DNA of 63,774 bases from Yinghuangia seranimata (GTDB lineage: Bacteria; Actinomycetota; Actinomycetes; Streptomycetales; Streptomycetaceae): contig NZ_JASAOI010000082.1 in NCBI RefSeq assembly GCF_029953285.1, forward strand, positions 1 to 63,774, read 5' to 3'. The translations under genes were made by a program, and so were the position numbers. The notes under the pieces were generated by a model. That model was not told where the DNA came from. It made no database searches and saw only the letters and a program-made list of their open reading frames with translations. This document shows positions 7 to 55,150 of this stretch, in pieces; position 1 is the stretch's first letter; the number at the start of each line of letters is the position of its first letter.

Positions 7-295
7 GGCGACCACGCTGGGGCCGCGGGCGGGCAGCGGCAGCCGGGCAAAGCGGCGCCACACTCCCCGCCCCTGCCGCTAGTTGCCGAGGTCGTTAGCG
101 CGGACGGCACGCGGGTCAAGCCGCCCCCTCGGCCCCGGGACAGGCCGCCTGTCCGTGGATGGATCACCGCGGCTTGACGCGCGGGCCGGCCGCGCGAAAA
201 TCTAAAAGCGGGAGGGGCGGGAGGCCGCCAACAGCGATACAGGCCCGGGACGGTGCAGCCTGGCGCCGTCCCCGCCGCAACGGAACAGGCCCACC
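7..295 (+). repeat. Dispersed hairpin repeat, copy R1
   Basis: First of six related intergenic elements. Block A (GCGACCACGCTGGG) starts near 8. B is at 63-79, C at 98-124, the D loop with GACAGG-CCG-CCTGTC near 139-154, C' at 169-195, B' at 208-223, E (CCCGGGACGGTGCAG) near 244-258 and F (CCGCAAC..AACAGGCCCACC) near 274-295. C pairs with C' at 24 of 27 positions and B pairs with B'. F lies about 95 bp from the stop codon of the minus-strand gene that ends at 392. Any partner copy facing block A would lie outside the window. Confidence 0.85.
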
Positions 296-391
296 CCGAA
301 CCGGTGCTGCTGGCAATGGCCGCCCTCGCCGTCCGCAGCCGCGGCAAACGCTGAGGCGGGACGAGGCCACCGGAGTCACGGGAAACGAAGG

Positions 392-694
392 TCACGGGCC
401 GCCGGGTGAGGGGAACAGGCCGGCGAGGGCCTTGTCCACCTCCTGGTAGGCCTTCATCGCCTCGTCGACGCCCTTGATCGTCGCGTCGATGTCCTTCTCG
501 ATCTGGTCGAGGCCGTACTTCCACTTCTTCTGGAAGGTGTTGCAGGCCTGGTCGAGCTTCTTGGTCCCGACGCGGTCGGCGTCGGTCTTGTTCATGGCCG
601 CCATGGCGTCGGTCATCGCGGCCTGGGCAGCCTGGAGTTTGGTGACCAAAGCGCGCATCTGGTCGACGTTGACCTGGAACATCTCGGTACCCAT
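392..694 (-). CDS. WXG100-like small helical protein
   Basis: The product is 100 residues, the usual size of WXG100 (ESAT-6-like) proteins exported by type VII secretion. It has no signal peptide, is predicted to be almost entirely helical, and carries a W-K-Y-G turn near residue 55 in place of the canonical W-x-G between two helices. The ATG overlaps the stop codon of the upstream gene (TGATG), so translation is probably coupled. It is the last gene of a four-gene minus-strand operon whose first gene also has a WXG turn, so the two may be partners. No secretion ATPase is visible in the window, and the assignment rests on length, fold and context. Confidence 0.6.
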   Translation of the reverse strand: MGTEMFQVNVDQMRALVTKLQAAQAAMTDAMAAMNKTDADRVGTKKLDQACNTFQKKWKYGLDQIEKDIDATIKGVDEAMKAYQEVDKALAGLFPSPGGP

Positions 695-1758
695 CAGACT
701 CCCCTGCCTGTCGAACGGAGCCCGGCCTGCGCCATGAACTCCTCACCTGCGTAAGCCCGCACGCCGATCGGCAGCAGAACCCGTACACCGCTGCCCGAGC
801 TGTCGGCGATGTGGACCAGATCAGCCTGGAACCGGGCCATGGCGTCGACGTCGTCGGCCACCCCGAAGGCGTCGGCGCGCTCCATCAGCGGTACGTAGAC
901 CCCGGCCCATCCGAGCCGGGCACCGCCCCAGGCGACCGCGTCGGCGGGGCTCCGCACGACGCCGAACACGGACTGCCCCAGGAAGACGACCTCTTCGAGC
1001 TGGTCCCAGCGGAGCGAGACCGGCTCGGGCGCGTCCTTGTGCCAACCAGCGGTGTTCAACGAGACGTTGCCGATCGGGCGCCCCTTCTTGTCACGCCGCA
1101 CCGACTCGACCGAAGACCGCGGCAGGTAGCCGAAGGGCGCTTCGAGGTTGAAATCGACGTCTCGGCGGTCGACGACAGCCACGAACGGCGTATTTGCGGG
1201 AAACACCCCGGCCGCCAGAGCACGCCGGTCCGACTCCACGTCCGTGACCGGCCAGTACGGCATCGGCGGCGCCGGAACGTACCGAACCCGGCCCGCACCG
1301 GCCACGGCCAGCACGATGCCGCTCCGCAGGTCCCCTGCGCACAAAACGGATCCGGTCCCGCCGCCCGGGACGCTCTCCCACACCTTGCGTCGCCAGGGCG
1401 GACCGGGAATGCGTCCGCGCCGCGTGCCGACCGTCACCGTCACGTTGCTGAACTTTCCGTCCACGGGCTGCATTTCGAACGTCGCCGGTTCCACGGGGAA
1501 CGCCGTGAGCAGGCGACGGACGGAACGGGCGTCGGCGCGGCCGGTCAGGACAAAGCCGATGAACTGAAGCCACGCCGCGACAAGGACGACGGGGGCCGCA
1601 ACCGCCATCGCCGAGTCCTCTGGCACCAGCCGGGCCACCGCGATCAAGAACCAGGCCCAACCGACAGCGAGGAAGAACGTGCTGACCACCACACGCCCCC
1701 GCCGCTCGCGGTTGGCGCGCAGCAACAGGTCGTCGCCCACCTTCGCGTCGCTACTCAT
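694..1758 (-). CDS. Membrane protein of unknown function in WXG100 operon
   Basis: The product is 354 residues. Two hydrophobic segments near residues 22-42 and 50-72 look like a transmembrane hairpin, and the remaining 280 residues are soluble and mixed alpha/beta. I recognise no enzyme motif. The start overlaps the stop of the upstream gene (ATGA) and the stop overlaps the next start, so this gene sits inside a translationally coupled set with two WXG100-like genes. A membrane-anchored accessory role in export or handling of those proteins is an inference from context only. Confidence 0.5.
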   Translation of the reverse strand: MSSDAKVGDDLLLRANRERRGRVVVSTFFLAVGWAWFLIAVARLVPEDSAMAVAAPVVLVAAWLQFIGFVLTGRADARSVRRLLTAFPVEPATFEMQPVDGKFSNVTVTVGTRRGRIPGPPWRRKVWESVPGGGTGSVLCAGDLRSGIVLAVAGAGRVRYVPAPPMPYWPVTDVESDRRALAAGVFPANTPFVAVVDRRDVDFNLEAPFGYLPRSSVESVRRDKKGRPIGNVSLNTAGWHKDAPEPVSLRWDQLEEVVFLGQSVFGVVRSPADAVAWGGARLGWAGVYVPLMERADAFGVADDVDAMARFQADLVHIADSSGSGVRVLLPIGVRAYAGEEFMAQAGLRSTGRGV

Positions 1759-2462
1759 CCGAGGATCGCCCGAATGTCCGTGCCGCCAGCGGGCGGCGGA
1801 ACCGGTGAGGAGAGACTCGGTGGTTCACCGTCGAACCAGAACGTCGTCGCGATCCCCGCCACGAGTTCCTCGTACTCACCCAGGACGTCCCCGTCGATCG
1901 TGGAGCACTCCAGGACCGCTATGAGCGTTCCGGTGGGATCCACGACGGCCGCGTGCGCCTGGTGGGCCAGTCCGACCTCTCGCCGCCCGTCCTCGTCGCC
2001 TCCGACACCCGTCGCCGTGACCGGAACGCTGCTCGACCACTTCACCGCCGGGCCCGCGGGCACGTCGAATTCCTCGGGCTCACAGGCCCACTTCCCCCGC
2101 ACGAGTCCGGCCACGGCATGCCGGGTGGTACCGCTGTCGGGTATCTCGCACGTCAGCGTGGTCAGCGTCAGGCAGCAGGTGCTCATGGTGCCGTCCTCCC
2201 GCTGGAAGGTCCCCATCGCGAACAGGCGTACGCCCTGACCCAATAGATCGAGCACCAGACTCATCGCGGCTCCCACCGCCGCCTCGGCTTGCCGCCGCCC
2301 CGCGTCGTCCGCGAACGAGTCGATGAACTCTCGGCATCGGAGTGCGAGTTCATTCGGGTCTCCGGCCAGCGGAACCGCGTGGAATCCCGGAGGAAGGGAC
2401 AGCCACACAGACCGCTCGGACGCCGCGACCGCCGCCCCCCGCTCAACCGCTGTATCAAGCAC
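1755..2462 (-). CDS. Hypothetical soluble protein in WXG100 operon
   Basis: I place the start at GTG 2462-2460 because AGGAGA (2473-2468) sits 5 nt upstream; an upstream ATG at 2507 would run back into the preceding gene. The product is about 235 residues, with no signal peptide or membrane segment and no motif I recognise. It lies between the WXG-domain gene and the membrane-protein gene and overlaps the latter by 4 nt (ATGA). A chaperone or accessory role for the WXG proteins is possible, but nothing in the sequence proves it. Confidence 0.5.
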   Translation of the reverse strand: MLDTAVERGAAVAASERSVWLSLPPGFHAVPLAGDPNELALRCREFIDSFADDAGRRQAEAAVGAAMSLVLDLLGQGVRLFAMGTFQREDGTMSTCCLTLTTLTCEIPDSGTTRHAVAGLVRGKWACEPEEFDVPAGPAVKWSSSVPVTATGVGGDEDGRREVGLAHQAHAAVVDPTGTLIAVLECSTIDGDVLGEYEELVAGIATTFWFDGEPPSLSSPVPPPAGGTDIRAILG

Positions 2463-2475
2463 GATGTTCTCCTGG

Positions 2476-3753
2476 TCAGCGCGTCGCGACGATGGCCGGA
2501 CCGACACTCGTCAGCAGGCCGAGCGAGTCGAAGGCCGACGTGTCGACGTCAACGCCGAACTTGTCCGCCACGTATGCGGTACCGCTCACCGCGACCCCGG
2601 TGGCGGCCAGGGCCTTGCCCATGTCCTCGGCGGTGACCGCCACGGAGCCGAGCGGGATCATCAGGCCGTTCTTCGCGGCCCTCGCCCCCTCGATCGCCTC
2701 GGAGGCCGCGTTCACAAGGACGTTCGCGCCGCCGCTCTTCGCGGCGTCGACGGCGGCCTGGAAGCCCTGCGCGGCACCGGACACCACGCCGGTGCCCGCC
2801 CGGGCGCCCGCGACGGCTCCGGTGACCACCGACTTCGCCGCACCGAAGCCGGGGATGACGCCCGCGACGTCGGCACCGACGGAGAGCCAGTTCTTCCAGT
2901 CGCCCGGATTCTGGATGAGGTCCTTGCTGTGCCCGGCCGCCGCGGCCGCGCTGACCGCGCCGGCGGCCATCAGCAGAACCACGCCCGCGGTTCCGCCCGT
3001 TCCGACGATGAGCGCGGCCGTCGCGAGCACGCCCGCGACGATGGCCAGAACGTCGGCCGCGTCGGCGAGTTTGTCGATCGCACCCTTCACCGCGTCCTTG
3101 ATCGAACCCCAGACGCTCTTCTTCGGCTTGTGCGGCGCGATGTCGTCGGCGTCGTCGAGGCGGGACGCGACGCCCTTCGCGTCGTCGTCGTGCCGGTCGT
3201 CCAGTTGCTCGGCACGGCGCTTGATGTCCTTGAGGGCGTCCTGCGCGTTCTTCAGGTCGGCGTTGGCCCGGTTCACCGCGCCGACGGCCGCGTCGTAGCG
3301 CTGCTGGAGGCTGCTCAGCTCGGCGTCCGTCTCAGCCTTCGCACCGGCCAGTTTCAGGTCGGCGTTGCCGGACGCCTGCTGCGCGGTCTGGTCCGCGGCG
3401 GCGAGCTTCTGCTTCGCGGCGGCGGCCTCCGCCTCGAGGTTGCGGGCGGTGTCCTGATGGCCCATCAGCATCGTGTGCCACTGGGCAAGTTCACCGGCCG
3501 CACGACCGAAAGACTGCTGCGCCTTGTCGAGGCGCTTCGGCAGGTTCTCCCGCATGTCCTTGCGGAACGCGTCGGCAGCTTTGCCCTGCCAGGCCGAGCT
3601 GTCGGCGTTGGCCACGGTCTGCGTCGCCGAACGTGCCTCGTCGAGCGCGACTTTCGCGCGGTTCAGCGCGTCGACGAGGCCCTGCACGTTGTCGGGCACA
3701 CCCTGGGCAGGGTCGAAGCCCAGATTCGGGTACGCGGCCGGATTTCCACTCAT
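2476..3753 (-). CDS. Long WXG-domain protein, putative type VII substrate
   Basis: About 425 residues from the ATG at 3753; an in-frame ATG at 3813 is also possible and neither has a strong ribosome site. The N-terminal region is helical and carries the classical W-Q-G turn inside SAWQGKAADAFR, then an Ala/Gln/Lys-rich coiled coil to roughly residue 210. A hydrophobic Gly/Ala-rich hairpin follows near residues 245-290, and then a Gly/Ala-rich tail. WXG proteins with long C-terminal extensions are often type VII secretion effectors, but I recognise no toxin domain here. It is the first gene of the operon. The intergenic DNA upstream carries a 14-bp palindrome. Confidence 0.6.
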   Translation of the reverse strand: MSGNPAAYPNLGFDPAQGVPDNVQGLVDALNRAKVALDEARSATQTVANADSSAWQGKAADAFRKDMRENLPKRLDKAQQSFGRAAGELAQWHTMLMGHQDTARNLEAEAAAAKQKLAAADQTAQQASGNADLKLAGAKAETDAELSSLQQRYDAAVGAVNRANADLKNAQDALKDIKRRAEQLDDRHDDDAKGVASRLDDADDIAPHKPKKSVWGSIKDAVKGAIDKLADAADVLAIVAGVLATAALIVGTGGTAGVVLLMAAGAVSAAAAAGHSKDLIQNPGDWKNWLSVGADVAGVIPGFGAAKSVVTGAVAGARAGTGVVSGAAQGFQAAVDAAKSGGANVLVNAASEAIEGARAAKNGLMIPLGSVAVTAEDMGKALAATGVAVSGTAYVADKFGVDVDTSAFDSLGLLTSVGPAIVATR

Positions 3754-3897
3754 GCTCGACCTGCCCGGCGCCCGACCGGAGTGTTCGGACATGCAGAAGG
3801 CACGACGCATCATCCCCCGTTGATCGCGTCCTCAGGCGCGCTCGCGCGTCGCCGCGGAGCGGCGCAACCGACGGGCCTGGAATGACAATTGGCTGCA

Positions 3898-3942: not shown

Positions 3943-4098
3943 TCATTCCTGTGTCCAGCGAGGGCTGAGCGGGACCGGGATCTCGGCCCAGACGACCTTG
4001 CCGTGCGGGCGGCGCTCCGCGCCCCAGGTTCCGAGCGAGGCGAGGACGGCGAGCCCGCGCCCGTCCACGGCGCCGTCGTCGGCCGGTGGCGGGACCGC
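3943..4098 (-). pseudogene. RsbW-like anti-sigma kinase, 3' remnant only
   Basis: Reading the minus strand from about 4098 to a TGA at 3945-3943 gives around 50 residues that match the C-terminal end of RsbW/HATPase_c serine kinases. They include a DGRGL G-box followed by LAVLASLGTWG and the terminal strand KVVWAEIPVPL. The ATP-binding N-terminal half (N-box and first G-box) is absent, because the next bases upstream are the middle of a DUF5753 gene on the other strand. In intact WhiJ-type loci this gene is the anti-sigma-like member, divergent from the HTH gene. It has no start and is taken to be dead. Confidence 0.75.
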
Positions 4099-4558
4099 CC
4101 GCGCGATCTACTCCTCCGCCCAACCACCGCTCTCGCCCGACGAGATCGAGGCCAAGGTCGAGGCTCGGATGGCACGCAAAGAGATCCTCACGCGTGCCGA
4201 CCCGACTCAGGTCTGGATCGTGCTCGACGAGGTCGTGCTTATGCGCTGGCCGTCAGGCGCTTCCATCGTCAAGCCCCAACTGCAGACGCTGCTCGACTTG
4301 GGCGACTTGCCCAACGTTACGGTCCTCGTGGTTCCGATCAACCACGGCGTGCATGCGGGCCGCGACGGCTCTCAAACTCTTTTGTCGTTCACCGGCTCCG
4401 ACGACCTCGGATACGTCGAGCCGCCGGGCGGTGGACTGGTGATCTCGGACTTCATGAGAGTTGCGTCCCTGCGGCGTCGCTACGATCTTTTGTTGACGGA
4501 AGCCTTGTCATCAGACAAGTCCGCGCAGCTGATCCACTCTCGTATGGAGGGTTCGTGA
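3998..4558 (+). pseudogene. WhiJ-type regulator lacking its HTH half (DUF5753 remnant)
   Basis: From about 4101 the frame encodes ARAIYSSAQPPLSPDEIEA and then a normal DUF5753 domain (ARKEILTRADP, WIVLDEVVL, LPNVTVLVVP) to the end. Family members are about 280 residues and begin with an XRE-type helix-turn-helix, which is missing. The DNA before 4101 reads as the antisense of an RsbW-like gene, so residues from the ATG at 3998 up to the junction are not native. Without the HTH it cannot bind DNA in the usual way. It still overlaps the downstream DUF397 gene by 4 nt (GTGA). Expression of the remnant is possible but not shown. Confidence 0.75.
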
Positions 4559-4740
4559 GCGACACGGGGCGAGTTTGGCGCAAGTCGACGTACAGCAGCG
4601 AGCAAGGCGAATGCGTCGAAGTCGCCCACAGCGAATCCGCCCTCATCCCCGTCCGGGACAGCAAGGACATCTCTCGCGGTGTCCTCACCGTCCCCATCAC
4701 CTCATGGGCGGCGATGACCGCTGGTCTCAGCCGTCAGTAG
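4555..4740 (+). CDS. DUF397 protein of WhiJ-type locus
   Basis: This 61-residue protein starts at a GTG that overlaps the preceding stop (GTGA), with GGAGG at 4546-4550. It has the DUF397 signature: WRKSTYS near the N-terminus, CVEVA, VRDSKD, and a C-terminal SWAAMTAGL helix. In Streptomyces such small proteins are encoded beside WhiJ-like HTH regulators and are thought to bind or modulate them. Here the partner has lost its DNA-binding half, so this intact gene may be an orphan or may act on a WhiJ-like protein encoded elsewhere. It converges with the next gene with only 4 nt between them. Confidence 0.85.
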   Translation: MSDTGRVWRKSTYSSEQGECVEVAHSESALIPVRDSKDISRGVLTVPITSWAAMTAGLSRQ

Positions 4741-4744
4741 GCCG

Positions 4745-5242
4745 TCACGCCAACGGCAGTTCCATGACCAGCTCGCGGCTGAGGCCGTCCGGGGTGGGGT
4801 CACCGAGGATGTCCGTGTGCTGGAAGCCGTTGCGTTCGTAGGCGTGGGTGGCTCGGGTGTTGTCGGGGACCACGGACAGGCGCAGGACCGTGTTGCCGCG
4901 TTCCGCCGCCCAGCGGGCGATGTCGGCTATGAGAGCGTCGACGACGCCGTGGCCGCGGGCAGGCGGGGTGACGAACATCGAGATCAGTTCGGCGACGCCC
5001 GGCTCCTCGTCCGGACCCGGGATGCCCGAGGCCATCGCGCTCGGCCGGCCGTTGACGAGGGCGACCAGGTTGTACGAGCCGGGTATGTCGAGGCGGGCGC
5101 GCCAGCGTTCCTCGCGGTCGCCGTCGCCCTGCCATTCGGCCAGCGTCGTGCCGAACGCGTTCGGCGCCTCGGTCAGGGCCTGGAGGCGCAGGTCACGCCA
5201 CAGGGGCCAGTCGTCGGCGGACAACACGTGCATTTCGATCAT
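4745..5242 (-). CDS. GNAT family N-acetyltransferase
   Basis: The product is 165 residues, a single GNAT domain expected to transfer an acetyl group from acetyl-CoA to an amine. Visible hallmarks are an N-terminal WRDLRLQAL helix, the central strand ELISMFVTP followed by the acetyl-CoA loop RGHGVVDAL (motif A, R/Q-x-x-G-x-G/A), and the C-terminal RLSVVPDNTRATHAYERNGF with the Y-x-x-x-G-F motif B. The substrate cannot be inferred. It stands alone on the minus strand, with 4 nt separating it from the convergent DUF397 gene. Confidence 0.85.
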   Translation of the reverse strand: MIEMHVLSADDWPLWRDLRLQALTEAPNAFGTTLAEWQGDGDREERWRARLDIPGSYNLVALVNGRPSAMASGIPGPDEEPGVAELISMFVTPPARGHGVVDALIADIARWAAERGNTVLRLSVVPDNTRATHAYERNGFQHTDILGDPTPDGLSRELVMELPLA

Positions 5243-10343: not shown

Positions 10344-10778
10344 TTAGGGACACGGGTTGTGCGGGGGCTTGTGCTCCGGCGGCTTGTGCTCCGGCGGGCA
10401 CGGCGGCTCATGCTGCGGGGGCTTGTGCTCCGGCGGCTTGTGCTCGGGCGGGCACGGCGGCTCGTGCGGTGGCGGCACGTGCGGCGGCTTGTGCTCCGGA
10501 GGCTTGTGCTCCGGCGGGCAGGGCGGCGGCGGGCAGTCGTCCTTGTGCCAGGACGGCGGGGTCCACGGAACGTGGCCGTGCACCCACAGCCCCCAGTGCT
10601 CCGAGTGCTCCGGGTACTCCACGCCGATGCCCCGGGACGCGTCCTGGTCGTCCATGGTGTCGGCCATGGCGGCACCGGCCGGGCCCAGGGCGACGATGGC
10701 CGCCGCCAGGATGAACGCGCCGCCTAGTCGTTTCCCCCCACGGCGCCGGTCGGTACCGGCGCACGAAGTCCTTCTCAT
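10344..10778 (-). CDS. Secreted His/Pro-rich repeat protein
   Basis: I start at ATG 10778 because GGAAGGAGA sits 5-8 nt upstream; the product is 144 residues. An Arg/Lys-rich N-terminus is followed by a hydrophobic stretch (GAFILAAAIVALGPAGAAMA) and a likely signal-peptidase site. After a short Trp/His-rich segment (HWGLWVHGHVPW), the C-terminal half is low complexity: three CPPEHKPPEHKPP-type units plus HVPPPHEPP. The dense histidines and repeated Cys-Pro pairs suggest metal binding at the cell surface, or a polyproline spacer; this is inference. It stands alone, converging with the SRPBCC gene. Confidence 0.7.
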   Translation of the reverse strand: MRRTSCAGTDRRRGGKRLGGAFILAAAIVALGPAGAAMADTMDDQDASRGIGVEYPEHSEHWGLWVHGHVPWTPPSWHKDDCPPPPCPPEHKPPEHKPPHVPPPHEPPCPPEHKPPEHKPPQHEPPCPPEHKPPEHKPPHNPCP

Positions 10779-10938
10779 CCGTCTTCTCCTTCCGCCGTGG
10801 CCACTTGCCGCGGCGCATTTCATGCTGCGGCCGGGCATTTCATCCCTTTAAGCGACACACCCCAGCCGAAGGGGTGAATGTGCGTAACCACACGGACGGA
10901 CGGTCGTAGGCGCGCAAAGGTCGGACGACCGGGCCCCA

Positions 10939-13929
10939 CTATCCCGTTGGCGGACTCCAGCGCTCGGTCAACGCGGCAAGCCGCAGCAGCCCGTTCGACG
11001 CGGGTCCCGCCGCCGTCAGCGCACGCAACGTCTCGGCGTCGTCGCGCTGTTCGAGCCAGTGCTGGACCCGCGCCTGGGCGGCCGCACGGGCCGCGCGCGG
11101 CATGCGGGCGTAGGCCACGTGGCGTACCGGGCCGTGCCGGAAGGTGTACTGGGCGTCGCCGTCGACGGCGCTGCTGGGGGCGCGGTCGAGGAGGCCGTGA
11201 CGGGCCAGGGCGTCCAGCAGGGCCTCGGTCTCGCGCGTGCCACGTTCACAGGCAGCGGCCACGGCGCCGGACCACACGGTGTCGCCGACGACCGCGGCAT
11301 CACGCAGCACCGTCTTGGCCTCGTCCGGCAGCAGGTCGAGGCGGGCGGCGATGACGCGGCGGACGGCCTTCGGCAGCAGACGGGCGGCGAGGTCGGGCGC
11401 CGGAACGGCACGTCCCGGGCGCACACCGTCCACGAACGAACGGACGAACTCGGCGGCGAAGAACGGATTGCCGTCCGCCAACGACACCAGCAGCGCGGCG
11501 AGTTCGTCGTCCGACGCGACGGCCGGTTCCGGCGGCAGGCCGTGCTCGCGAAGCAGGTACCGGACCTGCCGGTCGACGTCCTGGTCCGACAGCGGCCGGA
11601 GGGCCACCTGCGTGACGGTGTCGGCGGCGCTCCACTGCGGACGCCGGCCGGCGAGCTCCGGACGAGCCGCCGCAAGCACGAACAGGCCGCTGTCGGCGCA
11701 CTGTTCGCGCCCGGAGACACCGCGCGCGGTGCGATCGACCAGATCCAGGACGGTGTCGTCAGCGGCATGCAGGTCGTCAATGAGTACGGCCACCCGACGC
11801 CGCGCGGAGAGGCGCTCCAGGAAGACCCACCACGCGGTGACGATCGATTCGAGGTCGATCGTCTCGCCCAGCTCCTGCCCGGCGCCGAAGGCCGCATAGA
11901 GCCGTGACAGCAGCCATTCCGCCTCCCGCGGCGTCTCGGCCGCGGCGTGGACGTGCTCCCAGAGCCGTTCGCGCAGGGCCTCGGGCGTGGCAACAGCCGC
12001 GCCGAGCGCGGCCCCCGAGGTCCGAGCAGCCCGGACGCCGCCCCCAACCTCCACGCCCACCCCGCCCTCACACACCAACCCGCAGCAAACACACAGCCCT
12101 TCGGCGATCAGCCCGAGCAGGCTCTCATCAACGAGCCTCGGCACCATGTGGACCACAAGCGGGTCCGTGTCCTCCCGCTTGGCGTCGCGGCGCACGACCG
12201 CCTCGAACTCGCCGAGCAGCCGGCTCTTGCCGAGCCCGGCCTCGGCCGTCACGACCACCGGCCCGCCACCCCGACCCGCACGGAAGGCCTCCACCAGAAA
12301 AGCCAGTTCGTCGTCCCGGCCGAACAACGGAGCACAGGGGGACGACTCGGCGGCCGGGTCACGCAGCCCCGCCGCCGACCAGGCGCACGCGGTGGCGCGG
12401 GCGGGCTCATAGCCGACGCGGGTGTCCGTGTTGCGGCGGGTCTCCTCGGTGACCCACACCTCCTGACGCGGGATCAGCGGCAGTGCGGACTGGCACAGGT
12501 CGAGCACCGGCCCGGTCACCCGCGGCGCACCCGCGGCCTCGGGCGCGCGACCGGCCTGCGCAGCCTCCGCCTGATACCGGACCAACGCCGAGCCGGTGGC
12601 GACAGCGGCGCGCACCGACACCCCGGGCAGCGCCGTCGCCGACCCGCTCCCCGCGATCCGGTGCCGAATCGCCAGGGCCGCGAACACCGCATGCAGCGCG
12701 TCGTCGTCACGACTGCGGCGGGCCCCGAAGAACGCCACCCACAGCGAGCCGATCCGGGTCGCGAGCAGGCCGCCGAAACGCGCGATCTCACGCCGGATCG
12801 CGGTGTCGGCGCGCTCAAGCGCCGTGTCGATGTCCTCGGCGTCGGCGCGCCCCTGCGTCGGCTCGAAGGTGACCCGAAGAACGAGGGTGGCAACCTCTTT
12901 GCGCTCGGTCACGGTGACATCAGCCGCGGCACACACGCCCGACTCGGCGGCGAAGCCGCGCCCGGGATCAGTCAACGGCGCGACGAACACGGAACCTTCG
13001 CCCCCTACCCCCTCCCTCAACGGCACCACGGCGGAGGCCGGGACCCTTTGATCCGTCCGCACCCCGACGGCAGGCGGGACCCCTCCCGCTGTCCCCACCA
13101 CAGCGGAAGCCGGACCCCCTCGGTCCGTCCGCATCGGCCCCGGATACAGCAACCGCGCGTCGTGCGTCAGGATCGCCTGCCGTAAGTCCCGTAACTCACG
13201 GCCCGGTTCGAGCCCGAGCTCGTCGACGAGGTCGGCACGCGCGGCGTCGAAGGCGGCCAGGGCCTCGGTCTGGCGGCCGCAGCGGTACAGCGTCAGCATC
13301 AGCTGCCCGAGCAGGCGTTCGCGGCGCGGTTCGGCGCGTACCGTCGCCTGGAGGTCGGCGGCGACCGCCTCATGCCGCCCTAACGCCAGCTCGGTCTCGA
13401 AGAAGTCCTCGAGCAGGTCCAGCCTGGCATTGCCGACGGCGCGCAGTTCGGGCCAGCGGACGCCGTCCTCCACAAGATCGGCCAGCACCGGCCCGCGCCA
13501 CAACGCCAGCGCGTCGCGCCACAGTTCGGCGGCGGCCGCGGGCGCCCCGGCGTCGAGTTCGGAACGGCCTTCAGCAGCAAGGGCGCGGAAGCGGTGCAGG
13601 TCGACGTGCGCGGGCTCGACGCGCAACAGATATCCGGGCGCACGGGTGAGGAGTTCGACGTCGGGGCGGATGGACTCGGGCGTGCCGGGCTCGGGTTCGA
13701 AGAGCCTGCGGAGCCGCCACACGGTGTTCTGCAGGACCTTGCGCGCCGACGCGGGCGCCGCGTCGCCCCACAAGGCGGTGATCAGGCGGCTGGTGGCGAC
13801 CACCTGGTTCGGGGACAGGAGCAGGTAGCCGAGCATGGCGCGTTGCCGGGTTCCGCCGAGGGGCAGTTCGCTGCCGTGGCGTACGGCGGCGAGTGGCCCG
13901 AGGATCCTGAACTGCGTTCCGTACGGCAT
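10939..13929 (-). CDS. Large SARP regulator with cyclase-like and AAA/NACHT-type domains
   Basis: 996 residues. The N-terminal 250 form a SARP module: an OmpR-like winged helix (RILGPLAAV, LGGTRQRAMLGYLLL, RKVLQNTVWRLRR) followed by the BTAD helical repeat. Residues of about 345-445 resemble a class III adenylate/guanylate cyclase domain used as a sensor module (VATLVLRVTFE, GGLLATRIGSLWVAFFGA, HAVFAALAIRHRI). A P-loop AEAGLGKS lies near 560-567, and after it a LuxR/AfsR-type ATPase region with VLIDDLHAAD as Walker B. Such proteins activate secondary-metabolite or developmental genes in an ATP-controlled way. It lies 30 bp behind a smaller SARP gene and is probably co-transcribed with it. The target is unknown. 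Confidence 0.85.
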   Translation of the reverse strand: MPYGTQFRILGPLAAVRHGSELPLGGTRQRAMLGYLLLSPNQVVATSRLITALWGDAAPASARKVLQNTVWRLRRLFEPEPGTPESIRPDVELLTRAPGYLLRVEPAHVDLHRFRALAAEGRSELDAGAPAAAAELWRDALALWRGPVLADLVEDGVRWPELRAVGNARLDLLEDFFETELALGRHEAVAADLQATVRAEPRRERLLGQLMLTLYRCGRQTEALAAFDAARADLVDELGLEPGRELRDLRQAILTHDARLLYPGPMRTDRGGPASAVVGTAGGVPPAVGVRTDQRVPASAVVPLREGVGGEGSVFVAPLTDPGRGFAAESGVCAAADVTVTERKEVATLVLRVTFEPTQGRADAEDIDTALERADTAIRREIARFGGLLATRIGSLWVAFFGARRSRDDDALHAVFAALAIRHRIAGSGSATALPGVSVRAAVATGSALVRYQAEAAQAGRAPEAAGAPRVTGPVLDLCQSALPLIPRQEVWVTEETRRNTDTRVGYEPARATACAWSAAGLRDPAAESSPCAPLFGRDDELAFLVEAFRAGRGGGPVVVTAEAGLGKSRLLGEFEAVVRRDAKREDTDPLVVHMVPRLVDESLLGLIAEGLCVCCGLVCEGGVGVEVGGGVRAARTSGAALGAAVATPEALRERLWEHVHAAAETPREAEWLLSRLYAAFGAGQELGETIDLESIVTAWWVFLERLSARRRVAVLIDDLHAADDTVLDLVDRTARGVSGREQCADSGLFVLAAARPELAGRRPQWSAADTVTQVALRPLSDQDVDRQVRYLLREHGLPPEPAVASDDELAALLVSLADGNPFFAAEFVRSFVDGVRPGRAVPAPDLAARLLPKAVRRVIAARLDLLPDEAKTVLRDAAVVGDTVWSGAVAAACERGTRETEALLDALARHGLLDRAPSSAVDGDAQYTFRHGPVRHVAYARMPRAARAAAQARVQHWLEQRDDAETLRALTAAGPASNGLLRLAALTERWSPPTG

Positions 13930-16935: not shown

Positions 16936-17199
16936 TGGATGCCCTGACCACTGTGTGACGCAGGTGTGACGCGAACACCCCCCAATGAGGGAGTTCTGGT
17001 GATTCGCATACGTGACGGCAAAGTGATGGGGGGTCGAGGCCGCGCCCCCGACCGACTCAAACAGGCGCGGCCCCCGCTGGAACGACCCCCGGCAGCGCAA
17101 CAAACCCCAGCAACAAAACCCGCCCGGAACCCCAAGCGAAACCGCAGCCCGGCAGCGCAGCGCCAGGAGCGGTGAAGCAGAACCGCAAAACGAAGCAAC
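16936..17199. other. Intergenic region with GTGTGACGC direct repeats
   Basis: About 260 bp between the polymerase stop and repeat R2. Two GTGTGACGC words (16953-16961 and 16964-16972) recur with an 11-bp period. A Pro/Arg-rich reading frame here has no coding character. Further right, CCGCAGCCCGGC occurs twice (once before R2 and once as its A block). Confidence 0.45.
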
Positions 17200-17445
17200 A
17201 CCGCAGCCCGGCGGGGAAACGAAACAAGCGCATCCACACCCCGCGCCCCTCCCGCCAGGTGCGAGGTGGTTCAGCGCGGACGGCCCGCGGGTCAAGCCGC
17301 AACAGGACAAGGCCAAATGACCAAACGCTGCCAGCATCGGCTTGAGGCGCGGGCCGTCCGCGCGGAACATCAAAAAGCGGGAGGGGCGTCAGGCCACCAC
17401 CGAAAACCAGGTCAGGAACGGTGCAGGGAAGCCCGCAACCCAAGG
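17200..17445 (+). repeat. Dispersed hairpin repeat, copy R2
   Basis: A-block remnant (CCGCAGCCCGGCGGGG) begins at 17201. B with CGCGCCCCTCCCGC is near 17242-17255, C at 17274-17300, C' at 17338-17363, B' with AGCGGGAGGGGCG near 17376-17388, and E (AGGTCAGGAACGGTGCAG) at 17409-17426. C and C' pair at 24 of 26 positions. The D loop is degenerate (ACAGGACAAGGCC). F is partial and abuts the stop codon of the minus-strand SRPBCC gene at 17446. Confidence 0.8.
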
Positions 17446-47565: not shown

Positions 47566-47856
47566 ATGGGCCTCGCCTGTTGCGGCGTGGACACCGCAGG
47601 CCATGTGCCGTCCCGGACCTGTCTGCCGGCGGCGGCCACCTCCCCCTCCCGATTGTGGATTGTCCGCGCGGCCGGTCGCCTGTCAAGGCGCGGTGGATCA
47701 TGTACGGACCGGTGGCCTGTGCCGTGTTCGGGGAGGCGCCTTGACAGCCGCCCGGCCGCGCTAAAGACCTCGGCAACTATCGGGAGGGGGAGGCGGTGTG
47801 GAGGCGCATCGGGTGCTTTCGCGTTGCCGGGTTGCGGTCCCAGCGTGGTGGGCGCC
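47566..47856 (-). repeat. Dispersed hairpin repeat, copy R3
   Basis: Minus orientation. F (GGGCCTCGCCTGTTGCGGCG) is at 47568-47587, B' (CACCTCCCCCTCCCGAT) at 47637-47653, C' at 47666-47691, C at 47736-47761, B (ATCGGGAGGGGGAGG) at 47779-47793 and A (GCGGTCCCAGCGTGG) near 47834-47848. C and C' pair at 24 of 26 positions; B and B' pair over 15. It begins 22 bp after the stop of the membrane-protein gene. Confidence 0.9.
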
Positions 47857-48092
47857 GGGGCGGCCCGGGCTTTCCAAGATCATGAGAGGTTGGCGGGGAT
47901 ATGTTTGCGCGCCCCGCTCAGGTAAATGGTGTGGGGGGGCCCGGCCTTACAACGTTCAGGCCCGGGCGCCGCAACTCGGTGGCCCCCCACCTCTCATGAT
48001 CATGATGTGGGAGGGCGGCGGGCACCGATTCCGCACTCCCAGCGAGCATAAAGGCCCTGAATCCGGCATATTGGCTGGGCTGTTCATGATCG

Positions 48093-48131
48093 TGGGAACG
48101 GAATGGACGCTCAGCGTCCATTGGGTTCCCA
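48093..48131. other. 18-bp hairpin in the R3-R4 spacer
   Basis: TGGGAACGGAATGGACGC (48093-48110) pairs with GCGTCCATTGGGTTCCCA (48114-48131) at 16 of 18 positions around TCA. It shares the order GAAC-N3-ATGG ... CCAT-N3-GTTC with the hairpin in the R5-R6 spacer. Confidence 0.75.
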
Positions 48132-48190
48132 GGGTCGTGGAGCGGGTGGCGAGGGAGCGGGGTGCGGGCCTTTCCGGCGACGGAGTCGGC

Positions 48191-48475
48191 GGCGACCACG
48201 CTGGGACCGCAGCCCGGCACGACCAACGCGACCAAAGCGCCTTCACACCCCGCGCCCCTCCCGATAGCTGCCGGGTTTTCTGCGCGGACGGGCGGCTGTC
48301 AAGCCGCCCCCAACAGCACGCGACAGGCCACCTGTTCGTCGAAGATCCATCGCGGCTTGACAGCCGTTCGGCCGCGCGGACCATCAAAAGTCGGGAGGGG
48401 CGCCAGGACACCGCCGGCAGACGGGCCCGGGACGGTGCAGGTCTTCGACGTCCACGCCGGAACAGCCGAGGCCTA
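48191..48475 (+). repeat. Dispersed hairpin repeat, copy R4
   Basis: A (GCGACCACGCTGGGACCGC) is at 48192-48210, B (GCGCCCCTCCCGATA) at 48252-48266, C at 48282-48307, the D loop CGACAGGCCACCTGTTCG near 48321-48338, C' at 48352-48377, B' (GTCGGGAGGGGCGCC) at 48390-48404, E (CCCGGGACGGTGCAG) at 48426-48440 and F at 48449-48475. C and C' pair at 23 of 26 positions. It ends 70 bp before the stop of the minus-strand hydrolase gene. Confidence 0.9.
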
Positions 48476-50786: not shown

Positions 50787-52217
50787 GTGACCCGTCACAA
50801 GGCCGGAGCGGATGGTGGCGCACGGCCCGACGCCCCCGGAGCGGGTGGTGCGGGCCGAGCAAAGGCCCCCGGAGCGGGGGGTGGCGCCCGGCCCGGCCCC
50901 AGCTCGGAAGTCGGCTCCGCCGCGTGTTCTGACGTTCCGTCGGTTGCGGTGCCTCCGCTCACGCTTGGAGGGCGGCCGATCGGGGAGTGGCTGGCCGGGC
51001 GCGCGGCGCGGATGAGCGGGGACGTCGTACGGCGGATCGTCGACGAGCTGCCGGTGTACCGGCAGTTGCCGCGCGAGGAGGTCACCGGCGAGATCGCCGA
51101 CATCGTCGAGCACAACCTGCGCGTGCTGGCACGGGTGTTCGCGGACCGGCGCGGGGCCTCGGAGGAGGAACTGGCGGCGCAGCGGTTGTCGGCGGCACGG
51201 CGGGCCGAAGAAGGCGTGCCGTTGGACGCGGTGCTCGGCGCGTACCACGTCGGCATGCAGGCGGCGTGGGAGGAGCTGTCCGAGGCCGCCGCCCCAGACG
51301 AAATCGCTGATGTGAAGGCCGCGTTGCGACTGTTGCTCCACATGCTACGGCAGGTGACGGTCGCGGTGAGCGCGGCGTATCTGGAGGAGCGCCGGACGCT
51401 GGAGACGCAGGAGCACCACGGCCGCCGGTCGTTGATGACCGCGCTGATGGCGGGCGACCCGGTCGACGGCATCGCGGAGCGGGCGGGACTGCGTCCGGCG
51501 CCGCACTACGTCGTGCTCACGCTGGTGATCGGTCCGCACCCCGACGAGGCGCCGGGCTCGGGCAGCCCGAAGATCGCGGCCCGTCGCAAACTGCGGCGAG
51601 TGCAGGGCGAGTTGGAGCGGTTCACCGACGAGCCCGCGCTGATGGTGATCGATGCGAGCGGTGGGACGGTGCTGCTTCCCGCGGCGGGCGGGCCTCCGGC
51701 ATGGGAGGAACTGTGCGGGCTGGTGGACCGTACGGCGAAGGCCGCCGGAGCGGAGATCACGGCGGCGGGTGCTGTGGCCGCACCGTCGGGGGTGCCGGAG
51801 GCGGCGCGGCAGACCGCGGAGGTCGTGGACCTGGTACGGCGTACCGGGCGTGGGACGGGGCTGTTCCGGCTGGCGGACGTCCTGCTCGACTACCAACTGA
51901 GCCGTCCGGGCGAGGCCAGGGAGCAGCTTGCCCGGCTCCTGCTTCCGCTGGCGACGCGTCCGGAACTACTGGAGACGTTGGAGGTGTTCGTGCAGTCGGG
52001 GTTGAGCCGGCGGAAGGCCGCGGCTCGATTGCATGTTCATCCGAACACGGTGGACTACCGGGTGCGGCGGATCGCCGTGTTGACGGGTCTCAACGCGGCC
52101 CGGGCCACCGACCTGCCGAGGATCCGGGCGGCGCTGGTGGCCCTTCGGGCCGGCCCTGTCGGGCGTGCCGGGCCTGCCGAGGCTGCCGGGCGTGCCGGGC
52201 CTGCCGGGCGGGTCTGA
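50787..52217 (+). CDS. PucR/CdaR-type HTH transcriptional regulator
   Basis: About 476 residues from GTG 50787 (an overlapping in-frame start lies 3 nt upstream). A Gly/Ala-rich low-complexity leader of about 55 residues precedes the helical RsbRD-like region (MSGDVVRRIVDELPVYRQLPREEV, HVGMQAAWEEL). A GGDEF-like middle domain follows (YVVLTLVIG, GTVLLPAAGG). The C-terminal HTH_30 helix-turn-helix is clear: LLETLEVFVQSGLSRRKAAARLHVHPNTVDYRVRRI. The tail is again Gly/Ala-rich. It is divergent from the lipase-like gene, which it may regulate. The effector is unknown. Confidence 0.85.
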   Translation: MTRHKAGADGGARPDAPGAGGAGRAKAPGAGGGARPGPSSEVGSAACSDVPSVAVPPLTLGGRPIGEWLAGRAARMSGDVVRRIVDELPVYRQLPREEVTGEIADIVEHNLRVLARVFADRRGASEEELAAQRLSAARRAEEGVPLDAVLGAYHVGMQAAWEELSEAAAPDEIADVKAALRLLLHMLRQVTVAVSAAYLEERRTLETQEHHGRRSLMTALMAGDPVDGIAERAGLRPAPHYVVLTLVIGPHPDEAPGSGSPKIAARRKLRRVQGELERFTDEPALMVIDASGGTVLLPAAGGPPAWEELCGLVDRTAKAAGAEITAAGAVAAPSGVPEAARQTAEVVDLVRRTGRGTGLFRLADVLLDYQLSRPGEAREQLARLLLPLATRPELLETLEVFVQSGLSRRKAAARLHVHPNTVDYRVRRIAVLTGLNAARATDLPRIRAALVALRAGPVGRAGPAEAAGRAGPAGRV

Positions 52218-52248
52218 TGCTAATTATTGATGAACAAAAATCGTTGAT

Positions 52249-52266
52249 CTTCAAACATGGTTGAAG
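52249..52266. promoter_or_regulatory. Candidate operator in A+T-rich patch upstream of YceI
   Basis: CTTCAAACATGGTTGAAG is an 18-bp near-palindrome (CTTCAA-N6-TTGAAG) inside a patch (about 52218-52290) that is far richer in A+T than the surroundings. MarR-family sites are often of this kind. It lies about 100 bp upstream of the YceI start. Confidence 0.4.
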
Positions 52267-52366
52267 ACGCAATGATCTGGTGGTTGAATTCGGAACGACC
52301 GCAGCGGGGGCGCGCGACTCCGCCCGGCGTCAGGCTCACACCCCCCACAGCACCCCGGGAGTCACC

Positions 52367-52927
52367 ATGACCACCGCCCTCGCACGCCCCGAACTCTCCG
52401 CCGGCACCTGGGTGATCGACACGGCCCACTCCGCCGTGACGTTCAGCGTCCGGCACTTCGGCCTCGCGGCCGTGCGCGGCGGCTTCCGCGAGTTCTCCGG
52501 CCAGATCACCGTCGGCGAGGACGTCCTCGCCGGCTCGGTGCGGGCGGAGATCGCCATCCCGTCGATCCACACCTTCAACGAGGCCCGCGACGGGCACCTG
52601 CTCAGCCCCGACTTCTTCGCCGCCGAGGAGCACCCGACCGCGGTGTTCACGTCCAGTGCGGTGTCCCAGGTCGACGCCGAGACGTTCGACGTCAAGGGCG
52701 AGCTGACGCTCAAGGGCGTCACGAAGCCGGTCGAGCTCACGCTGACCTTCAACGGCACCGAGACCGACCCGCAGAGCGGCGCGCTCAAGGCCGGCTTCAG
52801 CGCGACCACGACCATCCTGCGCAGCGACTTCGAGGTCGGACCGCACTACCCGCTGCCGTCGGGCAAGGCCGCCATCGCGGACAAGGTGCGCATCGACCTG
52901 GAGATCGAGGCGGCGCTCGCGAGCTGA
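52367..52927 (+). CDS. YceI family lipid-binding-type protein
   Basis: 186 residues from ATG 52367. It shows the lipocalin-like YceI pattern: GTWVIDTAHSAVTFSVRHFG, VRGGFREFSGQITVGEDVL, DGHLLSPDFFAAEEHPTAVFTS, GELTLKGVTKPVELTLTF and the final strand ADKVRIDLEIEA. YceI proteins bind isoprenoid-like lipids in a beta-barrel. This one has no signal peptide, as is usual for the cytosolic actinobacterial group. An A+T-rich patch with a near-palindrome lies upstream and a T-rich hairpin downstream, so it is probably monocistronic. Confidence 0.9.
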   Translation: MTTALARPELSAGTWVIDTAHSAVTFSVRHFGLAAVRGGFREFSGQITVGEDVLAGSVRAEIAIPSIHTFNEARDGHLLSPDFFAAEEHPTAVFTSSAVSQVDAETFDVKGELTLKGVTKPVELTLTFNGTETDPQSGALKAGFSATTTILRSDFEVGPHYPLPSGKAAIADKVRIDLEIEAALAS

Positions 52928-52947
52928 CGCGCCACGCCTAAGCGGCC

Positions 52948-52985
52948 GACGCCGCCGTGCCCCGGGGAGCGGGCGCGGCGGCGTC
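52948..52985 (+). terminator. Intrinsic terminator after YceI gene
   Basis: GACGCCGCCG (52948-52957) pairs perfectly with CGGCGGCGTC (52976-52985) around an 18-nt loop, followed by the T-rich stretch CGTGTTTGTTGCTG. Confidence 0.7.
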
Positions 52986-53057
52986 CGTGTTTGTTGCTGT
53001 GGGTTGTGTTCGTGTTTCTTGCCGGGGTTGCGTGTGGTGGTGGCTGCGGCTTCCCGG

Positions 53058-53609
53058 CTACGTCCGGCTAGAACGCGCTGCGTCGAGGACGCCGTTCATG
53101 ACTCTGAGGATGCGGTCGGCCGCCTCTTCCGGGTCCGGCTGTCCGAGATCGAGCCACGCGATGACGGCGTCTACGGCGACACCGGGCAGCAGACGCGCGG
53201 CCCAGTCCGTCCATGCGCCGGGTGGTAGGACGCCTGCCAGGCTGCGGCCGGCCAGATGCTCCGACACCTGGGCCAACTCGTCGTACAGCTCGCGGAATTC
53301 CGGTTCGCGTGCGGCGCACCGGTACAGCACACGGAACCCGTCGGGGTCGGCGGCGGCCGCGCGGAGGAACGCCGCGAGGCTGTGCTCGCCGTAGTTCCCC
53401 GATCCGACGCCTGCCATCAGACGGTCGCGGGCGCGCACGAAGACGGCTAGGCACAGGTCGTGCTTCGAGTCGAAGTGGCGGTACAGCAGAACGCGGGTGA
53501 TGCCGGCTTCGGCGGCGATGTCGTCGACGCTGGTGTTCGCGAAGCCGGTCCGGACGATGGCTCGGGTCGCGGCGTCCAGGATCTGCTCTCGGCGCTCGAC
53601 TCGGCGCAT
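53058..53609 (-). CDS. TetR family transcriptional regulator
   Basis: 183 residues from ATG 53609; a start further upstream cannot be excluded. The N-terminal TetR HTH is textbook: RREQILDAATRAIVRTGFANTSVDDIAAEAGITRVLLYRHFDSKHDL. The remainder is the helical ligand-binding domain. The gene lies between YceI (convergent) and a NUDIX gene upstream on the same strand, with 122 bp separating them. The target is not identifiable; an intermediate A+T-richer stretch at about 53640-53730 may hold its promoter and operator. Confidence 0.9.
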   Translation of the reverse strand: MRRVERREQILDAATRAIVRTGFANTSVDDIAAEAGITRVLLYRHFDSKHDLCLAVFVRARDRLMAGVGSGNYGEHSLAAFLRAAAADPDGFRVLYRCAAREPEFRELYDELAQVSEHLAGRSLAGVLPPGAWTDWAARLLPGVAVDAVIAWLDLGQPDPEEAADRILRVMNGVLDAARSSRT

Positions 53610-53731
53610 GCGGCGGACCGGTGCGGCTTCGTTCGACGGGGTTGCTGTGTCCGTGATCAGGTCCGGGGTTGTGAGTGGGTTTCGGTTCGTTTGCCTGTGT
53701 TCGGTGTATCTCTTGCCGTTGTGCAGGGAGT

Positions 53732-54298
53732 CTACAAATCCTGGGCGCCGGGCAACGGGCAACCGTTCACCAGGTAGGCACACCCGCCGGTCTCGCGGGC
53801 ACGGAGTGCGGCGGCCGCGCGTCGTGCGGTACGCGGGTGCAGCGCGGCCAGCGCCTCGTCGACGGGCAGCGCGGCGGCGCCGATCAGCTCGATGTCGACG
53901 GCTTGGAGGTCGCGGGTCTGGTCGGCGGTGAGCGGCGGCGCGTCGAAGACGAAGTTGAGGATGACCCGGCCGAACACCGCGGTGGAGGTGGCGTCGACGA
54001 CGAGGAGGCGCCCGGGGACGACGTCGAGTCCGATCTCCTCCGCCACCTCGCGCACCATGGCCTCGTGCGGCAACTCGCCTGGCTCCACCATGCCGCCGGG
54101 GAGCTCCCAGCCGTCCTTGTAGGACGGGTTGACGACGACCAGGCGTTGGTCCGGGTCGAGGATGAGGGCCATCGACGCGGACGGGTCGCCGGGGAGCGAG
54201 GCTACGAAGTCTCGGAGGCCTTGGTCGGGTTCGGGGATGGCCGTGGGGTCGGGGATGGCCGTGGGGTCGGCGTCGGTGGGCGGCTGGTACGTCGTCAA
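53732..54298 (-). CDS. NUDIX hydrolase
   Basis: 188 residues. The full Nudix box G-x5-E-x7-R-E-x-x-E-E-x-G is present in GGMVEPGELPHEAMVREVAEEIGL. An N-terminal tandem ADPTAIPDPTAIPEP is encoded by a short DNA duplication near 54233-54270. The enzyme should hydrolyse a nucleoside diphosphate linked to another moiety; the exact substrate is open. Its start is about 50 bp from repeat R5, so any promoter must lie within or next to that element. This is the only copy near a gene start. Confidence 0.88.
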   Translation of the reverse strand: MTTYQPPTDADPTAIPDPTAIPEPDQGLRDFVASLPGDPSASMALILDPDQRLVVVNPSYKDGWELPGGMVEPGELPHEAMVREVAEEIGLDVVPGRLLVVDATSTAVFGRVILNFVFDAPPLTADQTRDLQAVDIELIGAAALPVDEALAALHPRTARRAAAALRARETGGCAYLVNGCPLPGAQDL

Positions 54299-54347
54299 GG
54301 GTGGTTCCTCCTTGCTGTCGGGGCTGCGTTGGGGCTGAACCGTTGCC

Positions 54348-54635
54348 GGCCTGGTCCGTTGCGGCTGGCACCACTTTTGAGCTGCACCGTTCCTGGCCTG
54401 CTCCGTGGTCGGTGGCCTCCCGCCCCTCCCGCTTTTGATTTTCGCGCGGCCGCCCCGCGCGTCAAGCCGCGGTGGACCTTTGAAGTACCGGCGGCCTGTC
54501 CCGTGCAGGAGGGGGCGGCTTGACCCGCGGGCCGTCCGCGCTGAACATCCTCGGCACCTGCGGGAGGGGCGGGAGGTGTGGCGCCGCTCCCTCGCTTCGC
54601 GTCGCCGGGCTGCGGTCCCAGCGTGGTGGGCGCGC
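54348..54635 (-). repeat. Dispersed hairpin repeat, copy R5
   Basis: Minus orientation. F remnant (GGCCTGGTCCGTTGCGGC) is near 54349-54366, E (CTGCACCGTTCCTGGCCTG) at 54382-54400, B' (GCCTCCCGCCCCTCCCGC) near 54415-54432, C' at 54444-54470, C at 54515-54541, B (GCGGGAGGGGCGGGAGGT) near 54560-54577 and A (CTGCGGTCCCAGCGTGG) near 54610-54626. C and C' pair at 24 of 27 positions and B and B' over at least 16. Confidence 0.9.
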
Positions 54636-54726
54636 GGCGCTGCCGGTCGGTGTCGGCCGGGTGCCGGGACGGGTCGCGCCGCCGGGCCGCGGTCGCCGAT
54701 CTCTCACCTCTCACTGACAACGGTTT

Positions 54727-54770
54727 TCAAAAGAACCAGATGGCAACATGTGGCCATTTGGTTCTTTTGA
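54727..54770. other. 18-bp hairpin in the R5-R6 spacer
   Basis: TCAAAAGAACCAGATGGC (54727-54744) pairs with GCCATTTGGTTCTTTTGA (54753-54770) at 17 of 18 positions, the exception being a possible G-U pair on one strand. The loop is AACATGTG. Confidence 0.8.
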
Positions 54771-54868
54771 CGCAAAGTCAATAGGGGTTCGGCCGCCCCA
54801 ATGCCCGGATTTGGTGCGATATGAGACCCATGGAGCCCGGTCACCGGTCGTCAAAGGCGGTCGCCCGC

Positions 54869-55150
54869 CCACGCTGGGACCGCAGCCCGGCGACGCGAAG
54901 CACGCATTGCGCCTCCACACCGCCTCCCCCTCCCGATAGTTGCCGCGGTTTGAAGCGCGGCCGGGCGGCTGTCAAGGCGCCTCCCCGACACGGGACAGGC
55001 CACCTGTCGAGGACCGGTCCACCGCGCCTTGACAGGCGACCGGCCGCGCGGACAATCCACAATCGGGAGGGGGAGGTGGCCACCGCCGGCGTGCAGGTCC
55101 GGGGACCGTGCATGGCCGGCGGTTTCCACGCCGCAACAGGCGAGGCCCAC
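54869..55150 (+). repeat. Dispersed hairpin repeat, copy R6
   Basis: A (CCACGCTGGGACCGCAGCCC) is at 54869-54888, B (CCTCCCCCTCCCGAT) near 54923-54937, C at 54955-54980, D (GGGACAGGCCACCTGTC) near 54992-55008, C' at 55024-55049, B' (ATCGGGAGGGGGAGG) near 55062-55076, E (GGTCCGGGGACCGTGCA) near 55096-55112 and F (CCACGCCGCAACAGGCGAGG) near 55126-55145. C and C' pair at 24 of 26 positions; B and B' are perfect over 15. It ends 17 bp before the stop of the ABC permease gene. Confidence 0.9.

Follow-up and report, generated by a model that had tools for sequence, protein, structure and literature searches.

Hairpin arms in the window and in the genome

The stretch of DNA analysed here (in the following: the window) is contig C69 of the genome (G000; 9.8 Mb, 113 contigs, 98% complete) of a Yinghuangia sp., an actinomycete from soil, at its full length of 63,774 nucleotides (nt). 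It contains six long hairpin repeats, R1 to R6, all of which are found where a first-pass annotation of the sequence had placed them; R3 and R5 are plus-strand copies and the other four are minus-strand copies. These hairpins, in the following called arms, are the ends of probably mobile elements. Between two inverted arms such an element holds a gene or else a short central segment, which in most cases contains a palindrome. The arm core comprises about 172 nt and the whole arm up to about 280 nt.

A covariance model was built from 34 copies, and the search of the own and related genomes that the first-pass annotation had proposed was performed with it. In G000 (150 candidates scored) it returned 144 rows, from which opposite-strand echoes of the same palindromes were removed by hand, leaving 105 places as a lower bound for the arm family. 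All 105 are located outside of genes called with a simple codon model. With R5 as query 40 scored candidate places were obtained with E values from 8e-148 to 1.5e-41, which, together with a folding z score of -14.3 for the R5–R6 unit (20 shuffles, DNA parameters), excludes chance. The family had not been recognised in the first-pass annotation and the window indeed shows no Rfam match at the gathering score.

The distribution is apparently narrow. Among 61 genomes (the own genome and 60 relatives, 45 candidates scored in each) as well as among 200 genomes of the family (13 candidates scored in each) the arm model matched only G000 and G002, under strict filters and with so few scored candidates that weak relatives could escape. 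When 150 candidates were scored in G001 and G002, two relatives of the same genus, G002 yielded one arm match (48.4 bits) and G001 a sole, chance-like match of 16.7 bits (E 3.65). The G002 arm occupies a place orthologous to G000:C44:52831 with flanks 79–81% identical and a transfer-messenger RNA (tmRNA) gene near in both genomes; its stem blocks are kept and its letters are much altered. The gap near this tmRNA gene in G002 (L211, ~4051–4791) also holds a degenerate array of ~135-base pair (bp) repeats with GGCCGCGC-type palindromes. A distant blastn search with R5 in phage and plasmid records and a search for two DNA patterns in viral contigs gave no match. Tandem duplications of ~65 nt are present in some arm heads (C26:1, C98:233959, C25:2277, C24:363).

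Architecture of the units

Three kinds of units can be distinguished, i.e. paired units (type I), single-arm units with a conserved outer end (type II) and gene-bearing units. Neighbouring arms less than 3 kb apart are arranged plus then minus, tail to tail, in 26 of 27 pairs; the exception, two minus-strand arms on C25 separated by 2,057 nt, does not form a unit. The gap from core to core measures 306–353 nt in 20 of the 26 tail-to-tail pairs, and a scan detected a central palindrome with arms of 14–31 nt in 19 of the 26 paired units. Its letters switch among at least three types with pairing retained. The palindromes of C28, C44 and C75 are perfect over 25–31 bp, and mismatches persist in several others. 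In the draft assembly 23 arms are found at or near contig edges. Arms less than 600 nt from a contig start lie without exception on the minus strand (12/12) and those within 1.4 kb of a contig end on the plus strand (11/11, ten of them within 600 nt), as if the assembly had cut pairs; C24 represents a single-arm unit.

The motif of the type II end (40 of 45 candidates scored) has 39 occurrences in the genome, 33 of them near an arm and six within 375 nt of a contig end. It also occurs outside one arm in a few paired units. Its start is nearly fixed and reads Shine–Dalgarno motif-GTG-ATT-CGC-ATA. A small coding region beginning there (GTG ATT CGC ATA CGT GAC after GAGGGAG) was considered and is not claimed as a gene; after the near-fixed first codons the 39 copies diverge in length and frame. 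Inspection of the sequence also made outward promoters starting from the C-stem TTGAC seem improbable, as the -10 boxes are poor. A group II intron and an integron attC site were weighed by their general features and are not favoured. In the 39 type II ends TCAC motifs recur with 11-bp and 13-bp spacing, an arrangement which we presume to resemble sites of OmpR/PhoP-type regulators.

The units of the window are listed in Table 1. R2 is 96.4% identical over 473 aligned columns to the copy at another locus, C38:7128, and its outer end additionally holds a small CCCCC/GGGAG hairpin and GTGATTCGCATACGTGAC starting at 16999. The cores of R3 and R4 (47631–47801, plus; 48243–48412, minus) have their tails facing each other and score 152.1 and 152.9 bits; their central palindrome resembles those of C28, C8, C25 and of the gene-bearing C75 unit. 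In the same orientation the cores of R5 and R6 (54411–54581, plus; 54915–55084, minus) score 181.4 and 140.0 bits. The first-pass annotation had described six intergenic copies. Their positions hold, and what it had missed is their pairing into units with a central palindrome, the separate end of R2, the nature of R1 as one half of a unit interrupted at the contig edge, and the gene-bearing form.

Table 1. Arms, units and unit parts located in the window
Feature	Position	Strand	Remarks
R1, most likely right arm of a gene-bearing unit truncated at the contig edge	7..295	-	hairpin core 58-229; 173.9 bits
R2, single-arm (type II) unit	16955..17426	-	core 17234-17398, 138.3 bits; limits taken from the C38:7128 copy
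Conserved outer end of the R2 type II unit	16955..17033	+	TCAC repeats, two 11-bp spacings
R3-R4, paired (type I) gene-less unit	47566..48475	.	outer limits as in the first-pass annotation
Central palindrome of R3-R4, GGAATGGACGCTCAGCGTCCATT type, imperfect	48093..48131	.	found by eye; under the cut of the palindrome scan
R5-R6, paired (type I) gene-less unit	54378..55156	.	ends taken from 90-91% identical units C33, C55, C80
Central palindrome of R5-R6, TCAAAAGAACCAGATGG... type	54727..54770	.	22-nt arms, 2 mismatches

Gene-bearing units and their AbiEi-like protein

At C75:38712-40454 two arms surround a gene of 326 amino acids (aa). A second copy, 73% identical, lies beside the arm at C36:124110 in the same orientation and at nearly the same distance from the core (57 versus 56 nt). 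Since the first 138 bases of the window repeat the end of contig C36 exactly, and the left part of the unit on C36 comprises both an arm (C36:124110-124280, plus) and this gene, R1 most likely represents the right-hand arm of this gene-bearing unit, with the gene itself located beyond the window. The arm cores within the two gene-bearing units are 97.7% and 98.2% identical (the latter value being that of R1 against the C36:124110 core), compared with 0.68–0.91 in the remaining 25 pairs of adjacent arms. Gene-bearing and gene-less units have arms, tails and central palindromes in common. Within the C75 unit gene calling gave no further confident gene. Comparison of the two gene copies (nonsynonymous rate dN 0.19, synonymous rate dS 0.85, dN/dS 0.23) shows that they are under purifying selection.

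The N-terminus of the protein resembles AbiEi. In Pfam the C75 copy reaches 25.1 bits at a cut-off of 25 and the C36 copy 21.8 bits, i.e. below it, and PADLOC assigns the C75 protein to AbiEi (6e-14). In the C-terminal part the residues D, E, S, H, D and R are invariant in four homologues. A search by sequence for structural homologues gave no solved relative. A weak match to a profile of the four proteins (13.6 bits, E 0.013) at G000:C73:272-1009, in a frame overlapping an arm, is probably due to chance.

Two distant homologues were found in other lineages. The one in Rhodococcus ruber (record NZ_CP145323.1) is 34.5% identical and is classified as AbiEi by PADLOC (5e-11). The other, from an actinomycete metagenome-assembled genome (MAG), was met by chance in a locus taken for another reason; it reaches 32.1 bits with AbiEi_4 and is also called AbiEi by PADLOC. 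The MAG gene lies between 55-nt inverted repeats with 91% complementarity, at distances of 29 and 24 nt, and a palindrome of ~50 bp is present on either side of the Rhodococcus gene. This means that bracketing inverted repeats are seen in all four gene copies from three lineages, which are not fully independent as two belong to one family. When each flank was scored against the reverse-complemented opposite flank, the four copies reached 189, 78, 42 and 27, and the top score among 659 control genes (calls of the codon model in 75 actinomycete loci and the Rhodococcus record, with the four homologues excluded) was 21, followed by 15. By eye, the repeats around the distant homologues look unrelated in sequence. 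Searches for further relatives in viral contigs (protein alignments A3 and A4), in phages (protein search) and in plasmids (with the MAG protein) gave no match. Four of the six Rhodococcus palindromes lie in gaps between convergent genes, and the record, although labelled as plasmid, carries pks13, fadD32 and arabinosyltransferase genes and may be a piece of the chromosome.

Folding and covariation of the stems

The two stems proposed in the first-pass annotation, formed by blocks C and C' and by blocks B and B', are present in folds of single copies and show 17 and 12 consensus pairs, respectively, in 34 copies. The paired changes between copies named there are real as well, as judged from column counts in an alignment of 100 of the 105 copies (five truncated ones left out) to which the following values refer. 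Columns 60-119 contain C-G in 54 and G-C in 46 copies, columns 22-162 contain C-G in 55, A-U in 42 and G-U in three, and columns 11-173 and 12-172 change jointly (68 versus 32). Standard pairs fill 99.4% of 2,988 cells in this alignment, which was fitted to the covariance model and favours the model's own structure; shifting the partner by one to three columns abolishes standard pairing. Among the cells that depart from the commonest pair 157 differ on both sides, 17 on one side with pairing retained and 19 are unpaired. Mean identity amounts to 92% in paired columns, 68% in internal loops and 61% in the D loop. A small hairpin of block D (GACAGG-N3-CCTGTC) had been claimed in addition. It occurs in only 13 of 100 copies, and a D-block stem of at least 5 bp is formed by 97 of 100 copies compared with 91% of shuffled letters, so that the D hairpin is not general.

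From the paired changes the first-pass annotation had concluded that base pairing is selected. Constraint on the stems is borne out; to speak of selection is too strong in view of the small number of events. When the tested columns are left out of tree building, the minimum number of changes is two (columns 11/12), five (22-162), five (60-119) and three (40-139). Independent pairs number three for 60-119, two for 22-162 and one each for 11-173 and 12-172, all in the same direction and too few for significance. The stems are under constraint or correction, and selection on pairing is unproven. It is quite conceivable, if somewhat short of an even chance, that the paired changes are unselected and result from whole-arm exchange between subfamilies or from template-switch correction of palindromes in replication. 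The low number of tree events would fit such an origin, as would the eight mosaic-looking state combinations and the perfect palindromes of C28, C44 and C75, which correction would yield. However, neutral correction alone does not account for a stem sequence as conserved as that of the paired columns in comparison with the D loop, and mismatches were kept in several central palindromes.

Dispersal and genomic context

Dispersal of the units is well supported. Paired units at unrelated loci are 88–94% identical over 702–825 nt, and at several loci the relatives are shorter. The blocks that flank R5–R6 are 1,025 nt apart in the window versus 127 nt in G002, which has no comparable insert. The unit at C98:247837 is missing in both relatives, where the interval comprises 28 nt (G001) and ~128 nt (G002) versus ~1,950 nt in G000, and at the type II unit C98:233959 G002 is shorter by ~396 nt. 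The ~1,950-nt interval also includes an extra gene of 335 aa (G000:C98, ~246815–247822), which may have arrived with the unit or separately.

The units have a clear preference for gaps between convergent genes (26/59 versus 53/291 background gene pairs, p 5e-5) and avoid divergent gaps (6/59 versus 68/291, p 0.02); these counts cover 59 of 79 units, as 20 have no called neighbour on one side. At 73 of 105 arm places the head faces the 3' end of a gene, and the head of the C98:247837 unit even provides the stop codon of the preceding gene. Single-arm units in tandem contexts are equally divided between the strands (six each), and six of 28 single-arm units lie in divergent gaps. The largest group of recurrent neighbour genes comprises eight proteins at seven loci. 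A gene-sized segment at L286 ~10429–10981 (G000:C38) is inverted relative to G001 and G002 and adjoins a paired unit (11130–11827).

Origin of the family

We consider it moderately probable that the arms are parts of mobile DNA elements of one family, which multiplied in a single Yinghuangia lineage mostly as derivatives lacking the gene and for which the AbiEi-like protein is a candidate mobiliser. This protein is named because it is the only candidate found tied to the arms and because the tie recurs in other lineages with other repeats; we infer its role from sequence. The gene-bearing units would represent the self-sufficient form. Their product, putatively an AbiEi-like winged-helix joined to a restriction-endonuclease-like part, would recognise the arms or the central palindrome and cut there, and the cut or extruded hairpin ends would let the unit be copied into a new site. 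Gene-less paired and single-arm units would then derive from them and be moved in trans. If the machinery of movement requires folded DNA, this may be why arms and centre still fold.

Several observations weigh against this proposal. Movement of the units is deduced from comparison of sequences and was not directly observed, and no target-site duplication above shuffles was detected in 32 arm-to-end units (26 single-arm units and six in pairs). At the R5–R6 locus G001 contains 770 nt of other sequence, at the R3–R4 locus other genes lie in between in G002, and at the C38:7128 locus the intervals of the relatives are long and unalignable. The nuclease assignment is also delicate. The C-terminus resembles the restriction-endonuclease family MTES_1575 only below threshold (E 0.038 and 0.017), the invariant D, E, S and H are putative catalytic residues of a PD-(D/E)XK or EDxHD nuclease and may correspond to the motifs of Vsr-like and DUF559-like nucleases, and the structure model, obtained from the MAG homologue alone, was unusable (predicted local distance difference test score, pLDDT, 38). 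Homology of the distant proteins is thin, as the Rhodococcus protein gives no AbiEi_4 match in Pfam and the MAG protein is ~25% identical with a pairwise E value of 0.004 only. Moreover, the Rhodococcus palindrome occurs in six copies in the 74-kb record, and the control gene with the score of 21 is the neighbour of the Rhodococcus homologue.

The small number of gene-bearing units (two of 79 seen, C75 and C36/R1) leads to the view that the family is moved by another, unseen enzyme and that the AbiEi-like gene, which could be a defence or toxin-antitoxin gene, is a passenger captured once and then duplicated. A search of another 60 contig pieces, which cover 0.92 Mb of the 9.8 Mb, revealed neither an arm nor an AbiEi-like homologue (best E 0.21), and AbiEi proteins are annotated as antitoxins, with five in one Rhodococcus erythropolis strain according to PMC12915292. 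Nevertheless, a one-off capture would not predict that homologues of 34.5% and ~25% identity elsewhere are also located between inverted repeats, the arms of the gene-bearing units are the most alike of all pairs, and no Y1 transposase is present in G000 (other transposase types were not searched for). We regard a passenger as somewhat unlikely.

Alternatively, the arms could be bidirectional terminators or mRNA 3'-end structures that were selected by the host and spread by recombination instead of transposition. Such a function would agree with strong folding, with the enrichment in convergent gaps and with the heads directed toward gene 3' ends. The one old arm that G002 retains in an orthologous position close to its tmRNA gene makes a host role possible and speaks against purely mobile DNA as well. 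However, arms are dispensable in the genus, as G002 has a single copy and G001 no convincing one; single-arm units are found in tandem contexts in both orientations and also in divergent gaps, and enrichment at 3' ends is equally expected from tolerated insertion. We judge a host-selected terminator to be unlikely.

Comparison with known systems

Searches of the literature on Yinghuangia repeats, actinobacterial palindromes or miniature inverted-repeat transposable elements (MITEs), Streptomyces intergenic repeats and AbiEi with transposition gave no title or beginning of an abstract that describes this family or such a role. The closest parallel is provided by the repetitive extragenic palindromic (REP) systems, in which, according to PMC3116915, REP doublets forming hairpins (REPINs) or bacterial interspersed mosaic elements (BIMEs) are accompanied by REP-associated tyrosine transposases (RAYTs). 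As here, they are described as dispersed extragenic inverted doublets around a spacer, with compensatory changes, one protein gene next to the repeats and inferred single-strand hairpins. Inverted palindromic doublets outside of genes are what the Yinghuangia arms present (26/27 pairs; 105/105 places). However, REP units are given as 20–40 bp in the abstract of PMC3733652, and the Yinghuangia cores and arms are much longer. RAYT is a Y1 transposase and the Yinghuangia candidate an AbiEi-like nuclease; a search for Y1 transposases (RAYT or IS200/IS605-type HUH, PF01797) gave no match in G000, with five of 14 control genomes positive.

MITEs, as outlined in the review PMC10969869, are also short, gene-less, provided with inverted ends, predicted to fold and apparently derived from a longer gene-bearing form. 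Terminal inverted repeats are found in the paired and gene-bearing Yinghuangia units and are missing from the single-arm units. The Yinghuangia units differ from MITEs by the lack of a detected target-site duplication, by arms that are themselves hairpins and by the fact that no insertion sequence (IS) parent was identified; in addition they are GC-rich, unlike typical MITEs, which are AT-rich according to the same review. The bcr repeats of Bacillus cereus (100–400 bp, up to 130 copies) are likewise lineage-limited interspersed repeats with mobile features, and the portion of PMC6542083 describing them makes no mention of inverted doublets or of an AbiEi-like gene, which sets them apart by description. 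With the AbiE type IV toxin-antitoxin system the N-terminal AbiEi domain is shared (Pfam or PADLOC). In contrast with the AbiEi antitoxin, the Yinghuangia protein has ~320 aa and a nuclease-like C-terminus and its gene is flanked by inverted repeats.

In general terms, AbiEi-like winged-helix and nuclease-like proteins might mobilise undescribed actinobacterial single-gene elements with inverted, often self-palindromic ends, the ~100 Yinghuangia arms being gene-less and single-arm derivatives in a REPIN/RAYT-like relationship to an unrelated protein. We propose this tentatively, as an attractive possibility that falls short of being probable. If the protein does move the hairpins, a gene type filed as type IV antitoxin would represent a new kind of transposase-like nuclease and the database label “antitoxin” would be misleading. 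Regardless of this, the family comprises long, modular and strongly folded repeats at gene 3' ends and offers about 100 natural copies for testing pairing in long hairpins. If the proposal is true, REPIN-like systems arose more than once, on unrelated enzymes.

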